Shown: positions 8,429 through 21,037 of the stretch, piece by piece
How positions within the stretch are numbered: position 1 is the stretch's first letter
How the letters are laid out: each line of letters starts with the position of its first letter
Source of the DNA: Gammaproteobacteria bacterium
Lineage (GTDB): Bacteria > Pseudomonadota > Gammaproteobacteria > DSM-19610
Length of the DNA: 37,225 nt
Assembly: GCA_030621785.1 (NCBI GenBank)
Contig: JAUXGZ010000013.1
Span: 1-37,225, forward strand
Direction of reading: 5' to 3'
Program-made: the position numbers and the translations under genes
Notes under the pieces: model-generated
What the model saw: only the letters and a program-made list of their open reading frames with translations
What the model was told of the DNA's origin: nothing
The model's database searches: none

Positions 8429-9709
8429 ATGAGCCAGGATCATCTTTCAAGCGAGCTTTTCAAGGACTTTCCCCTGCCTGCAGAAATAATGCAAGGAATT
8501 GATAGTGCAGGCTTTATAGCCTGTACTCCGATACAGGCCAAGACGTTGCCGCTGACTCTGGAAGGCAGGGATGTTGCCGGGCAGGCGCAGACCGGTACCG
8601 GCAAGACGGCGGCATTTTTGATCGCTACCTTCAACCACCTGCTGACGCACGCGGCCGATGAAGGCCGCAAGCCGAACCAGGCAAGGGCCCTGATACTGGC
8701 GCCGACGCGCGAACTTGCGATCCAGATTCACAAGGATGCGGTGCGACTGGGCGAACATACCGGACTGCGTATCGGCATCGCGTATGGCGGTACCGATTAC
8801 GACAAGCAACGTTCAACGCTGGCCGAGGGTGTAGATATCCTGATCGGCACACCGGGGCGTATTATCGACTTTTTCAAACAGCGCGTCTTTGATCTGACCA
8901 GGGCGCAGGTGGTGGTGCTGGACGAGGCCGACCGCATGTTCGACCTTGGTTTCATCAAGGATATCCGCTTTCTGCTGCGGCGCTGTCCACCGCCGGAACA
9001 ACGGCTGGGGTTATTGTTTTCGGCGACGTTGTCGCACCGGGTGAACGAGCTGGCCTACGAACACATGAATAATCCCGAGCTGGTACAGGTGGAGCCGGAG
9101 CAGGTAACCGCGCAGCATGTTCGACAGGTGCTCTACCATACGTCCAACGAGGAAAAGATCCCGCTGTTGATTGGTATGATGCGGAGTATCGACGCCAGCC
9201 GCAGCATCGTCTTCGTTAACACCAAGCGAGATGCGGAAAAGGTATGGAGCTTCCTGGAGGGGAATGATTTCAAATCAGCCATCCTGTCCGGTGATGTGCC
9301 GCAGCCCAAACGGCAGTCGCTGCTGAAACGTTTCCAGGAGGGGGAGCTGGCTATTCTGGTTGCCACCGATGTGGCGGCTCGTGGCCTGCATATCCCGGAC
9401 GTCAGTCATGTATTCAATTATGACCTCCCGCAGGATGCGGAAGACTATGTGCACCGTATCGGTCGTACCGCACGTCTCGGCGCGGAAGGGGATGCCATCA
9501 GTTTCGCCTGTGAGCGCTTTGTCTATTCACTGCCGGAAATCGAGGCTTTTATCGGGCAATCGATTCCGGTAGCGCCAATCGATGACAGCATGCTGGCAGA
9601 ACTCGCGCCACCGGTCCCCCGGCCGCGGCGGAAAGGTCCGCCATCTCGACGGCCGGGGGGGCAGAAACACTCCCGCCACCAGCCCCGCAGGCAGAAATCT
9701 GCCCGTTGA
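8429..9709 (+). CDS. rhlB: ATP-dependent RNA helicase RhlB (DEAD-box)
   Basis: DEAD-box helicase, 426 residues; in E. coli the degradosome helicase. Motifs in order: Q motif (FIACTPIQ), motif I AQTGTGKT (53-60), Ia APTREL, II DEAD ([14 protein letters not shown]), III SAT, then the second RecA domain with [15 protein letters not shown] and [13 protein letters not shown]. The C-terminal 30 residues are basic ([14 protein letters not shown]), as is common in RhlB. I chose the ATG at 8429 because [14 protein letters not shown] aligns with the E. coli N-terminus. The frame stays open for 39 codons upstream, but these look non-coding. Divergent from trxA, as in E. coli. Confidence 0.94.
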
Positions 9710-15657: not shown

Positions 15658-18204
15658 TCAATGGAAATCCCTCGACTTGATAAGTAGTTTGCCAAGCAGG
15701 TAACTGTGATCTTCCAGTCGCCGGGCAACCAGGTGCAATACTTCACCTTCCCGTTGTACCTCGGCATCGATGACCAGCAGGCGTGCACCCAGCAGAATGC
15801 TGCGCTGTTGTTGTGCCAGCTGTGGCCAGACGATGATCTGGCTGACACCACTTTCATCTTCCAGGGTGACGAACATGACTCCGGATGCGTTGGACGGGCT
15901 CTGCCGGCCGGTTACCATGCCACCGGTGCGTACCCGGCTGCCCTGGTGGCAGGCCCTGACCCGGTTGGCATTCAGCAGGCCCAGACAATCCAGTCGGGGG
16001 CGCAGCAGGGCCAGCGGGTGCCGACCGAGGCTGAGGCCGAGAGCGGCGTAGTCGGCCAGCAGATTTTCGTCTTCTGTCGGTGTCCTGAGCAGCGGCGTAG
16101 CCTCGGCAATGGAGGTATTTTCCAGTAGCGGAGCCGGCGCTTCGATGCCGGCACAGGCCCAGCGCGCGCGGTGCCGGTGGCCGGCCAGGGAGGCCAGGGC
16201 ATTGCTGGTGGCCAGTGCTTCCATATCGCCGCGATCCAGGCATGCGCGGGTCGCCAGATCGGCGACATCGTGAAACGGTTGTTGCTCGCGTGCGGTCAGT
16301 AAACGTTGTATAGCGGCGCGCGACAGGCTCTTTACCATGGCCAGCCCGAGGCGCAGACCCGGCCGGTTGTCATTTTTCTCGTTGTCACGATTTTCCAGCG
16401 TGCATTCCCGGTGGCTGTGGCAAACATCGACCGGGTGTACCTTGCCGTCATGGCGACGCAGGTCATCGACCAGTTGCCGTGGACTATAGAAACCCATGGG
16501 CTGACTGTTTAGCAGGGCGCAGGTGAAGACGTCCGGGTAATGGTGTTTCAGCCAGGCGGAAACATACACCAGCAGGGCGAAGCTGGCCGCATGGGACTCG
16601 GGGAAACCGTATTCACCGAAGCCGAGAATCTGCTGGAACAACTGGTGGGCGAAAGCTTCGGTGTATCCACGGGCGCACATACCATCTATCAGGCGCTGTT
16701 CGAATTCCAGGATGCGACCGTGCCGCTGCCAGCGGGCCATGCAACGGCGTAGATGGTCGGCTTCCCCCGCCGTGAAACCGGCCGCGACCATAGCAAGCTT
16801 GATGACCTGTTCCTGGAATATGGGAATGCCCAGGGTGCGTTCCAGCACTTCGCGCACTTCTTCCGAGGGCCAGCTGACGGCTTCCAGACCCTGGCGCCGC
16901 CGCAGGTAGGGGTGCACCATATCACCCTGGATGGGGCCGGGGCGCACAATGGCGATCTCGATGACCAGGTCGTAGAAACAGCGTGGGCGCAGACGTGGCA
17001 GCATGGACATCTGGGCGCGCGATTCGATCTGGAACACACCCACGGTATCGGCGCGGGAGATCATGTCGTAGACCGCCGAGTCTTCTGCCGGTACCCTGTC
17101 CATGGCCAATGATATGCCATGGTGTTGGTGCAGCAGGTCGAAGCACTGGTGGATTGCACCCAGCATGCCCAGCGAAAGGCAATCTATCTTGAGCAGACCG
17201 AGGGCATCCAGATCGTTCTTGTCCCACTGGATTACTGTTCGCCCGGGCATGGCAGCATTCTCGACCGGGACCATGCGGGTCAGTGCATCGCGAGTGATGA
17301 CGAAGCCACCAACGTGTTGTGACAGGTGTCGTGGGAAGCCGATCAGCTGGTCGGTCAGCTTCATCAGCTTGCAGATTACCGGGTTGCCCGGGTTGAAACC
17401 GGCTTCGCGCAGACGTTCTGCAGTAATCTCCCGGCCATCCCACCAGTGAATGCTTGCCGTCAGGCGTTCGATCTGTCCGGATGCCAACCCTAGTGCCTTG
17501 CCGACATCACGCATTGCGCTACGGGGACGGTAGGTGATGACCGTGGCGGCCAGTGCTGCGCGCTCGCGGCCGTATTTTTCGTAGATGTACTGAATGACTT
17601 CCTCACGGCGCCGGTGTTCGAAGTCCACGTCGATATCCGGTGGTTCGTTGCGCTGTCTGGAAATGAAACGTTCAAACAGGGTGTCGATGCGGGCCGGGTC
17701 GACCTCGGTGATGCCGAGGCAGTAGCAGACCGTGGAATTGGCGGCCGAGCCGCGTCCCTGGCAGAGGATGTTGCGTGTGCGGGCAAACTGAACAATGTCG
17801 TACACGGTAAGAAAATAGGGTTCGTAGCGCAGTTCCCTGATTAGTAGAAGCTCGTGTTCGACCGCCCGCAATATCTTGTCAGGTGCGCCGGCGGGCCAAC
17901 GTCGGTGCAGGCCTTCCTCTGTCAGATGGCGTAGATAAGCCGTCGTGGATACTCCTTCAGGGGCCAGTTCTTCCGGATACTCGTAGCGCAGCTCGTCGAG
18001 TGAGAAGTTGCAGCGTGTAGCAATACGGATCGTCTCTTTCAGCAGGGCGGATGGATAGAGGCGCGCCAGCAGGGTGCGCTGGCGCAGATAGCGTTCACCG
18101 TTGGCGTGCAGGGAAAAACCTGCATCGCACAGACGCGCTCCCTGGCGGATTGCGGTCAGAGTGTCCTGCAGCGCTCGCCGGCTGCGGTCGTGCATCTTGT
18201 ACAT
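15658..18204 (-). CDS. dnaE2: Error-prone DNA polymerase DnaE2, polymerase part (downstream of frameshift)
   Basis: The catalytic part of an ImuC/DnaE2-type translesion C-family polymerase. The region after the PHP domain is complete: RSRRALQDTLTAIRQG, the palm with catalytic Asp191/Asp193 in PDIDVDF and Asp341 in LLKIDCLSL, the DnaE2-type PRHLSQHVGGFVIT, the helix-hairpin-helix region, and a C-terminal OB fold ending SRDFH, as in family members. The reading frame begins ATG-Tyr-Lys-Met inside the upstream fragment. Joined in the right frame the two parts give about 1035 residues, the normal DnaE2 length, so one base has been gained near 18196-18199. Whether this part is made alone by reinitiation is unknown. 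No imuA or imuB is adjacent. Confidence 0.85.
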   Translation of the reverse strand: MYKMHDRSRRALQDTLTAIRQGARLCDAGFSLHANGERYLRQRTLLARLYPSALLKETIRIATRCNFSLDELRYEYPEELAPEGVSTTAYLRHLTEEGLHRRWPAGAPDKILRAVEHELLLIRELRYEPYFLTVYDIVQFARTRNILCQGRGSAANSTVCYCLGITEVDPARIDTLFERFISRQRNEPPDIDVDFEHRRREEVIQYIYEKYGRERAALAATVITYRPRSAMRDVGKALGLASGQIERLTASIHWWDGREITAERLREAGFNPGNPVICKLMKLTDQLIGFPRHLSQHVGGFVITRDALTRMVPVENAAMPGRTVIQWDKNDLDALGLLKIDCLSLGMLGAIHQCFDLLHQHHGISLAMDRVPAEDSAVYDMISRADTVGVFQIESRAQMSMLPRLRPRCFYDLVIEIAIVRPGPIQGDMVHPYLRRRQGLEAVSWPSEEVREVLERTLGIPIFQEQVIKLAMVAAGFTAGEADHLRRCMARWQRHGRILEFEQRLIDGMCARGYTEAFAHQLFQQILGFGEYGFPESHAASFALLVYVSAWLKHHYPDVFTCALLNSQPMGFYSPRQLVDDLRRHDGKVHPVDVCHSHRECTLENRDNEKNDNRPGLRLGLAMVKSLSRAAIQRLLTAREQQPFHDVADLATRACLDRGDMEALATSNALASLAGHRHRARWACAGIEAPAPLLENTSIAEATPLLRTPTEDENLLADYAALGLSLGRHPLALLRPRLDCLGLLNANRVRACHQGSRVRTGGMVTGRQSPSNASGVMFVTLEDESGVSQIIVWPQLAQQQRSILLGARLLVIDAEVQREGEVLHLVARRLEDHSYLLGKLLIKSRDFH

Positions 18205-18760
18205 CTCCGCAGGCTACCAGCGGCAAGCCCAGTTGTTGTCCCAGCGATTGCAGAATGCTGAAACGCCGGATATCCCTGCCATCGAGGCGCCGCGTGACAC
18301 CGAGCCAGGCGTTGGCGCTGAAATGCTCCTGGATCCAGGCGGCCGTTTCAGCGAGGACGGGTGTCGAACACCGTTCCGCACCGGTCCAGATCAGCAGGCA
18401 GTTTTTCCCATACTCGACCAGTTCACCAGGCTGTAGCTGGTAGTTGCCTTTGGATGCCTTGCGCCTGGCATGACTGATCAGCATCGACAGGTCACCGTAG
18501 GAGCGGCGGTCGGTAGCCAGCAGGTTCAGTTGTAACTCCTGTCCGATCCGGAAGCTGCTGCCTGCAATCAACGTCAGACCGGCTTCCTGCGCAGCCGTGT
18601 GGGCCCGAACCATGCCGGCCAGGGAGCATTCATCGGTCAGGGCCAGTGCCCTGTAGCCCAGTTTCCGGGCACGCAGTACCAGCTCTTCCGGACGGGATGC
18701 ACCGCGCAGAAAGCTGAAATTGCTGATGCAATGCAGTTCGGCGTAGTCAGGTTCAGGCAT
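18095..18760 (-). CDS. dnaE2: DnaE2 N-terminal (PHP) part, ends by frameshift
   Basis: N-terminal fragment of the same polymerase. Residues 1-188 are colinear with DnaE2: PDYAELHCISNFSFLRGAS, the PHP core with ALALTDECSLAGMVRAH, and the segment ending LPLVACGDVQ. Family members continue with a Met-His-x-Arg-Ser-Arg-Arg sequence, which here lies in the +1 frame and opens the downstream fragment. The last 34 residues (DARPQPASAAGH and on) are out-of-frame translation. The start ATG at 18760 lies 22 bp from the LexA-like palindrome. It may be a sequencing error, a decayed gene, or a recoded one; no strong slippery sequence is seen, only GTACAAGATG at the break. Confidence 0.85.
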   Translation of the reverse strand: MPEPDYAELHCISNFSFLRGASRPEELVLRARKLGYRALALTDECSLAGMVRAHTAAQEAGLTLIAGSSFRIGQELQLNLLATDRRSYGDLSMLISHARRKASKGNYQLQPGELVEYGKNCLLIWTGAERCSTPVLAETAAWIQEHFSANAWLGVTRRLDGRDIRRFSILQSLGQQLGLPLVACGDVQDARPQPASAAGHSDRNPPGSASVRCRFFPARQR

Positions 18761-18766
18761 AACGAA

Positions 18767-18816
18767 ATCGTGATTACTCTATACTGTGTTTATATACAGT
18801 ATAGAGTAATCACGAT
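18767..18816. promoter_or_regulatory. LexA (SOS) box inside a 50-bp perfect palindrome
   Basis: Two 21-base arms, 18767-18787 and 18796-18816, are exact inverted complements around the 8-base spacer GTTTATAT. At the centre (18782-18801) is TACTGT-N8-ACAGTA, which fits the E. coli-type LexA consensus TACTG(TA)5CAGTA with a single departure in the spacer. The box lies 22 bp upstream of the dnaE2 start codon and about 120 bp upstream of the divergent gene at 18922. Damage-induced expression of dnaE2 under LexA is known in several bacteria. The arms extend the symmetry well past the operator, so the RNA could also fold into a long hairpin. Confidence 0.8.
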
Positions 18817-18921
18817 GTGCCATGGTACATTTGTCGTTCAGGGAGAAAATGTATCGGGAACAAATAGATAATTGATGCGGATGTTTCGGATGACGTTCGC
18901 AACCCGATCGAGGAGGGAAAT

Positions 18922-19326
18922 ATGGACCCGGCTTTGAAAGTCTGGCTGGGGGACGACGGGATACTCAGGATACAGTATCCGCCGGATTCGCATATGACGC
19001 TGGAAGCGATGCACTACATCTATGACCAGCACGTTCGTATTACCACGGAAAAAAGGCCGGTACTGGTCTACGCCGAGTCGGTAGCATCCGCCGAGTACGA
19101 GGCACAACAGTTCGCTTCCAGTCTGCAGGTTGTCGAGTTGACTGCCTGTGTTGCGATTATCGTGAAGTCGGTTTTTACCCGGGCGATGGGCGAGCTGTTC
19201 ATGAGATTTCACAAACCGCCATATCCGACACGGATCTTCAACGACGAGGAAAAAGCCGTCGAATGGTTGCTGGTCCAGTGGAACGGGCAGGCTGGTGCTA
19301 CCTCCGGACAGGAGGGCGGTTGCTGA
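18922..19326 (+). CDS. Small STAS/SpoIIAA-like protein, function unknown
   Basis: 134 residues. The pattern is a short strand pair (VWLGDDGILRIQYPP), a helix after HMTLEAMHYIYDQH, KRPVLVYAES, a helix SAEYEAQQFASSL, then VAIIVKSVFTRAMGELFMRFHKPPYPTRIFNDEEKAVEWL. This order and the final 'P-T-R-I-F-N-D-E-E-K-A-V-E-W-L' resemble the SpoIIAA/STAS-like proteins that are often called DUF7793-type; I cannot confirm the family. No membrane segment or signal peptide. A strong GAGGAGGGA precedes the ATG. It is divergent from dnaE2 and shares with it the region holding the LexA palindrome. Confidence 0.6.
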   Translation: MDPALKVWLGDDGILRIQYPPDSHMTLEAMHYIYDQHVRITTEKRPVLVYAESVASAEYEAQQFASSLQVVELTACVAIIVKSVFTRAMGELFMRFHKPPYPTRIFNDEEKAVEWLLVQWNGQAGATSGQEGGC

Positions 19327-19398
19327 AGGCGGCCAGGAAAAACATCCAGCGGTGGGTTGATCCCTGTAACAGGGGGATGGTTGTTATATTATGTCGTC

Positions 19399-19665
19399 AT
19401 GGACGAGCAAGAAAATCCGCTAAAGTTTCCCTGTGATTTTCCCATCAAGGCCATGGGGCGAATCGATTCCGCTTGTGAAGCCCTGGCGCTGGAAGTCATC
19501 CGCCGGCACGTTCCGGATTTCGATCCGGCCCGCATGCACAGCCGTGCCAGTCGGAATGGCAACTACCTGTCCGTCACCTTTACTGTCCGGGCCACCAGCC
19601 GCGAGCAGCTGGATGCAATCTACCGGGGGCTGACTGCCTGCGACGAATTGCTGATGGTGCTGTAG
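19399..19665 (+). CDS. ybeD: YbeD family protein (DUF493)
   Basis: 88-residue alpha/beta protein of the YbeD/DUF493 family, with a possible regulatory (ACT-like) fold. The typical features are FPCDFPIKAMGR, a helix, the strand GNYLSVTFTVRATSREQLDAIYRGL, and the C-terminal CDELLMVL. I prefer the ATG at 19399; the reading frame is open 14 codons upstream, but the family begins near MDEQENPLKFPCDFPIK. In E. coli and relatives ybeD lies directly upstream of lipB. Here a chromate transporter gene on the other strand separates them. Confidence 0.88.
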   Translation: MDEQENPLKFPCDFPIKAMGRIDSACEALALEVIRRHVPDFDPARMHSRASRNGNYLSVTFTVRATSREQLDAIYRGLTACDELLMVL

Positions 19666-19687
19666 CCCGATACCAGTTCCCTGTTTC

Positions 19688-21037
19688 CTACAGTACCAGG
19701 GAGTAGATCAGGCCTACTGCGGCACAGACGCCGATCACGGTAACAATGCCCACCCTGTATCTGAACAGGGCAACAAACGCGGCGGCTCCTATCAGGGCGG
19801 AAAACCATTCGAAGGCCCCCTCGAAACCCTGCGGCCAGAGTACATGGTAGGCAAAAAAGACCGCCAGGTTGAGAACTACACCCACCACGGCAGCGGTTAT
19901 GCCGGTCAACGGGGCTGTGAATTTGACGTCACCGCGGGTGGCTTCAACCGCCGGTCCACCAAGCAGGATGAACAGGAAAGAGGGTAAAAAGGTGAACAGC
20001 GTGGCTATACTCGCACCCGCAGCCCCCGCCAGCGGCAGCATATCAGGTCCGAACACTTCCTTGGTCCAGCCACCAACAAAGCCGACGAACGCAACCACCA
20101 TGATCAGTGGGCCAGGGGTGGTTTCCCCCAGTGCAAGGCCATCGATCATTTGTGTTCCGCTCAGCCAGGCATACTGCTCTACACCCCCCTGATAGACATA
20201 GGGCAAAACGGCATAGGCGCCACCAAAGGTGACCAGTGCTGCCTTGGTAAAGAACCAGCCCATCTGCGTGAGCGTGCCTTCCCATCCGTAGGTAGTGATC
20301 AGCATGGCCATTACCAGTCCCCCCACGGAAAGTCCGATTACGACGAATGTAATGGACCTGCTCCAGTTAAAACGCGCATGCGCAGGAACCGGGGTTTCAT
20401 CATCGATGAGTGCGGGACCGTAGGAACCTGCAGAGTCGCCATGATGCCCGCCTGCCCTGAATTTGTCGGGTGCGAAATGCGAACCGGTATAACCAATGAT
20501 GCCGGCCATCAGTACGATATAGGGAAACGGCACATCAAGGGCAAAAATCGCAATGAACGCCAGTACCGCCATGGCTCGAAGTACATTGTTCTTCAATGCC
20601 CTGGAGCCGATACGATAAGCCGCAAAAACAACAATCGCTGTGACGGCCGGCTTGATGCCGTATAAAATGCCTTCTACTGCCGGAACATCGCCATAGGCCA
20701 GATAGATCCAGGTCAGGCCCATGAGTATGAACAGTGATGGCATGACAAACAGAACCCCGGCGGCAATACCGCCCCATACACCGTGCATCAGCCAGCCAAT
20801 ATAGGTTGCAAGTTGCTGCGCCTCCGGCCCCGGAAGTACCATCGTGTAGTTAAGCGCATGTAAAAAGCGGTGTTCGGAAATCCATCTTCGTTTCTCGACC
20901 AGTTCCTGGTGCATCATGCTTATCTGGCCTGCCGGGCCACCAAAACTGATAAACCCCAGTTTGAGCCAGTAGAAAAAGGCCTCCCGAAAGGTGACCGGTT
21001 CCGGCCTGGCAGATGCTTCTTGTGTAATCGTGGGCAC
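19688..21037 (-). CDS. chrA: Chromate transporter ChrA
   Basis: Inner-membrane CHR-family protein of 449 residues, the long two-domain form. Each half carries the family hallmarks: KLGFISFGGPAGQI and LPGPEAQQLATYIGW in the N-terminal half, and TKAALVTFGGAYAVLPYVYQ and LGETTPGPLIMVVAFVGFVGGW in the C-terminal half. About 10-12 membrane helices are visible, with a hydrophilic loop near 195-225 (PDKFRAGGHHGDSAGS). ChrA exports chromate by proton-driven exchange; some relatives in sulfur bacteria may move sulfate or other oxyanions. The start is GTG with GAGGAG upstream. It lies between ybeD and lipB, which are normally adjacent, so it was probably inserted there. No chrB regulator is present. 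Confidence 0.93.
   Translation of the reverse strand: MPTITQEASARPEPVTFREAFFYWLKLGFISFGGPAGQISMMHQELVEKRRWISEHRFLHALNYTMVLPGPEAQQLATYIGWLMHGVWGGIAAGVLFVMPSLFILMGLTWIYLAYGDVPAVEGILYGIKPAVTAIVVFAAYRIGSRALKNNVLRAMAVLAFIAIFALDVPFPYIVLMAGIIGYTGSHFAPDKFRAGGHHGDSAGSYGPALIDDETPVPAHARFNWSRSITFVVIGLSVGGLVMAMLITTYGWEGTLTQMGWFFTKAALVTFGGAYAVLPYVYQGGVEQYAWLSGTQMIDGLALGETTPGPLIMVVAFVGFVGGWTKEVFGPDMLPLAGAAGASIATLFTFLPSFLFILLGGPAVEATRGDVKFTAPLTGITAAVVGVVLNLAVFFAYHVLWPQGFEGAFEWFSALIGAAAFVALFRYRVGIVTVIGVCAAVGLIYSLVL

Follow-up and report, generated by a model that had tools for sequence, protein, structure and literature searches.

A LexA operator in front of the error-prone DNA polymerase gene dnaE2 lies at the center of a perfect 50-bp palindrome. 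Judging from their sequences, related bacteria appear to have repeatedly made similar palindromes, each with different letters, right before the start codons of SOS genes. This suggests that mutation-causing genes may carry an extra lock in the form of an RNA hairpin. We regard the palindrome as a real, unusual variant of the LexA operator that recurs outside this genome, and a second regulatory layer as plausible. The reading as a whole, in which a LexA operator gained symmetrized arms that are kept as an RNA guard against read-through, is put forward tentatively and falls just short of probable.

A perfect palindrome on the dnaE2 operator

The window (the whole 37,225-nt stretch of DNA that was analyzed) contains a palindrome with 21-nt arms that are 100% complementary and 8 nt apart (Table 1), exactly as the initial annotation had described it. 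It is the sole inverted repeat found within 18000-20000 (minimum length 12, maximum distance 100), and it ends 6 nt from the dnaE2 ATG. Its center, CTGTGTTTATATACAG, matches CTGT-N8-ACAG with an A/T-rich middle, and the exact 20-bp form TACTGT-N8-ACAGTA occurs at this one site in the 2.15-Mb, 75%-complete assembly. For any given operator, chance pairing over 15 further bases outside the 20-bp box has a probability of about 4^-15.

The center of the palindrome can be read as an ordinary LexA operator repressing dnaE2. The genome encodes lexA (G000:C19:12033-12629), with CTGTGATTATATACAG lying upstream of it; lexA is also above the cut-off in 17 of the 19 other genomes of the order, and matching boxes are found upstream of these genes. 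Throughout the order the motif further occurs at recA, dinB-type polymerase, integron-integrase, and radical-SAM genes, named from their sequences. Because the genome has a lexA with the same motif upstream, and the order's SOS genes carry that motif, the assignment is sound. Together with the consensus fit and the supported identity of dnaE2, this upholds the annotated LexA operator. SOS control of integrons is already known, and at five loci of relatives (L199, L234, L248, L253, and L271) integron-integrase-like genes have consensus LexA boxes adjoining their starts, in agreement with it. A second CTGT-N8-ACAG match in the window, at 8521-8536, lies within a 465-aa ORF, has a center of mixed composition, and is probably due to chance (0.45 expected in the window).

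The dnaE2 and imuA-imuB-dnaE2 class of genes is persistently LexA-regulated (PMC3323433). The operator described here resembles the known one in its exact consensus and its position next to the start, but differs in having 15 more perfectly paired bases per side and arms that vary between species. We found no direct precedent for extended LexA palindromes or hairpin leaders in a literature search of partial coverage.

Table 1. Features of the dnaE2 operator region, and extended operators before other genes in relatives (gene names in the last six rows were read from the sequences rather than from a family search).
Feature	Position	Strand	Remarks
Perfect palindrome (21-bp arms, 8-nt center)	18767..18816		Inverted-repeat search
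Upstream arm (dnaE2 direction)	18796..18816	-	Inverted-repeat search; would be missing from a center-started transcript (putative start)
Downstream arm (dnaE2 direction)	18767..18787	-	Over the ribosome-binding region; 6 nt before ATG
LexA operator core CTGT-N8-ACAG	18784..18799		Consensus match; 20-bp box TACTGT..ACAGTA at 18782-18801; lexA with like motif in genome
Candidate -10 element TATACT	18798..18803	-	Genus alignment; putative; overlaps upstream half-site
dnaE2, 5' part	18095..18760	-	ATG at 18760; PRK05672 error-prone DNA polymerase
dnaE2, remainder in other frame	15658..18204	-	Apparent frameshift near 18190-18200; PRK05672
Divergent DUF7793 (SpoIIAA-like) gene	18922..19326	+	Homologous neighbor in G002, G007, G016
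Extended operator L076			Before lexA-imuA-imuB-dnaE2 operon
Extended operator L109			Before imuA
Extended operator L287			Before umuD-umuC pair
Extended operator L291			Before radical-SAM gene
Extended operator L244			Before HNH-type gene
Extended operator L280	G161:C24:23400-26000		Before long gene, FAN1-type-nuclease-like by eye

The dnaE2 gene is split over two frames (overlap 18095-18204) by an apparent single-base frameshift about 560 bp from the palindrome, and it is open in a single frame in all listed relatives. The frameshift is either a sequencing error in the draft genome or a mark of a decaying gene. This defect, in a single draft assembly, is what speaks for treating the palindrome as an assembly artefact or a mobile palindromic element, which we rank as the least probable of the explanations weighed. 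The 16-base inner arm has no second copy at fewer than 3 mismatches in the 2.15-Mb assembly, itself 75% complete, so the multiple genomic copies of a dispersed (REP- or MITE-like) repeat are lacking in the covered sequence. The 21-base arm was not found in viral contigs, plasmids gave just short matches (up to 42 bases) located over the operator, and independent assemblies show similar structures at the same place. A mobile repeat carrying the operator, one of three ideas in the initial annotation, was thus rejected, given a single copy in the assembly and other arm sequences in relatives. An Rfam search of the window returned no family match.

Extended arms in related bacteria

Relatives do not conserve the arm sequence, yet symmetric arms turn up in them far more often than chance predicts. 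Our sample comprised 182 dnaE2 upstream regions, which gave 60 distinct regions with a LexA-like box. Three unrelated arm sequences occur in one genus: ATCGTGATTACTC in the genome studied here, ATTCGGATCACC in G007 and G016, and GCAGGCTC in G002. Further long symmetric extensions, again unrelated in sequence, are found in G350, G359, G038, and a Thioglobus-like trio (L040, L041, and L047); too few genomes were available when the families of G350 and G359 were searched for nearer relatives. Within the trio, one arm pair has changed on both sides, from A-T in L047 and L041 to G-C in L040. Long arms are missing from the operators of three congeners (G001, G006, and G010) and of G017, a member of the same family. 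Among 54 dnaE2 operators whose CTGT/ACAG core is perfect, 9 extend the pairing by 9 or more bases outside the box; exchanging flanks between loci gave 0.0013 per operator, or about 0.07 expected among 54. The 24-bp form TATACTGT-N8-ACAGTATA occurs at 11 places in 369 genomes, 4 of them dnaE2, numbers too small for statistics.

Because the sequences differ between species while complementarity stays, the arms, as far as these comparisons reach, are no protein-recognition motif. An extended protein operator, bound by two cooperative LexA dimers or read by a second regulator, would fit the perfect twofold symmetry, which suits a dimeric protein. It is nevertheless highly improbable: arm sequences are unrelated among congeners while symmetry persists, and LexA contacts are centered on CTGT, with effects from adjacent bases (PMC4139847). 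The second LexA dimer proposed in the initial annotation is disfavored by the same lack of arm conservation, even inside the genus.

Enrichment near start codons and its explanations

Extended arms are concentrated at operators close to start codons and at dnaE2. We pooled 109 unique LexA operators, a set enriched for dnaE2, with related genomes partly removed (L040 and L041 are both counted) and with cut-offs that were not pre-set. Of the 68 operators with a start codon no more than 40 nt away, 16 have arms of at least 6 pairs, against 1 of the 41 that lie farther off (P=0.0025); for non-dnaE2 operators alone the figures are 7/45 near and 0/35 far (P=0.016). Arms of at least 9 pairs are present in 8/29 dnaE2 operators versus 3/80 other SOS operators (P=0.001). 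Long arms are absent from the lexA, recA, dinB-type, intI, and radical-SAM operators of the order. The longest non-dnaE2 case is L280, where the arms of the LexA box are extended by 14 bp and lie 22 nt before the gene.

The enrichment at start codons and at mutagenesis genes is the argument we offer that selection keeps the arms, for a function that is predicted. Extrusion of a DNA cruciform under supercoiling, tuning the promoter or LexA access, would need symmetry rather than sequence, as observed in relatives. It gives no reason for the start-codon preference, and extrusion of an AT-rich 50-bp palindrome may be restricted to high supercoiling; we attach only a marginal probability to it.

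A neutral by-product of mutation is a serious rival, which we judge doubtful on balance and far from negligible. Template switching at a palindromic operator would copy one flank onto the other, the arms would later decay, and the LexA site would be the sole function. Such quasipalindrome mutations create RNA hairpins, and a single event can yield perfect stems as well as compensatory changes (PMC8794818). The structures seen here are alike in their perfect stems and coupled two-sided changes, but their apparent seed was a protein operator within a promoter, and they do not lie in an RNA gene. The arms are also sporadic, perfect, and bimodal in length. Once long-armed loci were dropped, the remaining leaders paired at chance level, and sense-strand G-U pairs, a test of RNA-level selection, were not enriched in them. 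Those leaders thus show no gradation that would point to RNA selection, which weakens the RNA model, and the arms appear as sporadic perfect stems, as template switching would be expected to produce (PMC8794818). The arm of L157 is complementary to a flank that it has in common with L026 of the same genus, which has no matching arm; this has the look of an arm rewritten to fit its partner, the alternative being arm loss in L026. A neutral process alone would not favor operators near start codons or dnaE2. If the arms are neutral, LexA operators would be natural hot spots for the study of template switching.

A predicted hairpin over the ribosome-binding region

RNA folding separates two kinds of dnaE2 transcript. 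When the 101-nt region is folded as RNA read toward dnaE2, its energy is -38.2 kcal/mol (z = -7.5 versus dinucleotide shuffles). Freeing the start region (-18 to +9) of structure is computed to cost 22.3 kcal/mol in a transcript with both arms versus 5.7 kcal/mol in one that begins at the palindrome center. A like contrast was computed for G007, G002, G350, G359, and the L040 group; it is absent in G038, in which the palindrome lies 38 nt away from the start and would leave it open. An RNA hairpin in the dnaE2 leader is the best supported of the three ideas in the initial annotation, now narrowed to upstream-started transcripts only.

We propose that the flanks of an ordinary LexA operator were symmetrized, probably by template switching for which the operator, itself a palindrome, was the seed, and that the extra arms were retained at sites where they have a role in the RNA. 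The LexA-controlled transcript probably begins near the palindrome center. With a start at the candidate promoter, the SOS messenger would contain the downstream arm only and its ribosome site would be open, while a transcript entering from upstream would contain both arms and fold into a 21-bp hairpin that covers the ribosome-binding region, preventing translation. The hairpin would thereby guard the mutagenic polymerase from leaky read-through. In the genus alignment TATACT sits in a suitable place for a -10 element, and several species have hexamers resembling TTTCCA or TTGCCA at 17-18 nt upstream of it; a fixed-spacing -35 element gives a weak peak at 17-18 nt over 46 leaders; the window holds no strict consensus promoter.

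The same stem could instead act as an intrinsic terminator or attenuator, halting upstream-entering transcription before dnaE2 at the TTTCGTT that follows. One terminator-like match was indeed found on the minus strand, and it coincides with the palindrome. Its T tract is weak and interrupted, however, and the stems of G007, G002, G350, and L040 are not followed by a T tract. We therefore find termination very unlikely.

The proposed RNA guard resembles fold-back inhibition of the IS10/IS50 type, known from some insertion sequences, in which an inverted repeat hides the ribosome site in externally started read-through RNA of the transposase. Here too the start region is computed to lie within a stable stem in upstream-started RNA. 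The guard, a prediction from sequence and computed folding, would differ in protecting a host SOS gene, with the repeat centered on a repressor operator.

Extended to other genes, this becomes a recurrent, independently evolved two-level lock, in which mutagenesis and repair genes have their LexA operators symmetrized into hairpins that, in the RNA, cover the ribosome site, leaving only transcripts from the LexA-controlled promoter open to translation. We consider this generalization possible, on a more tentative footing than the guard at dnaE2. If true, mutagenesis genes would have a second, RNA-level safeguard encoded by the operator DNA itself. It would evolve through palindrome-forming mutation rather than sequence conservation, and motif searches would therefore miss it. 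A simple rule would follow: where the symmetry of an operator extends as far as the ribosome site, expression from read-through is blocked.

Several observations count against the guard: chance pairing elsewhere, armless congeners, the distant palindrome of G038, the frameshift in the dnaE2 studied here, a promoter that consensus did not identify, a dnaE2-favoring sample, and cut-offs chosen without prior setting. The gene upstream of dnaE2 is divergent in this genus, which leaves no obvious source of read-through RNA there; it is co-directional in L040, G359, G038, and G245. The divergent DUF7793 (SpoIIAA-like) gene and dnaE2 have their intergenic region in common, and the operator may affect that gene too.
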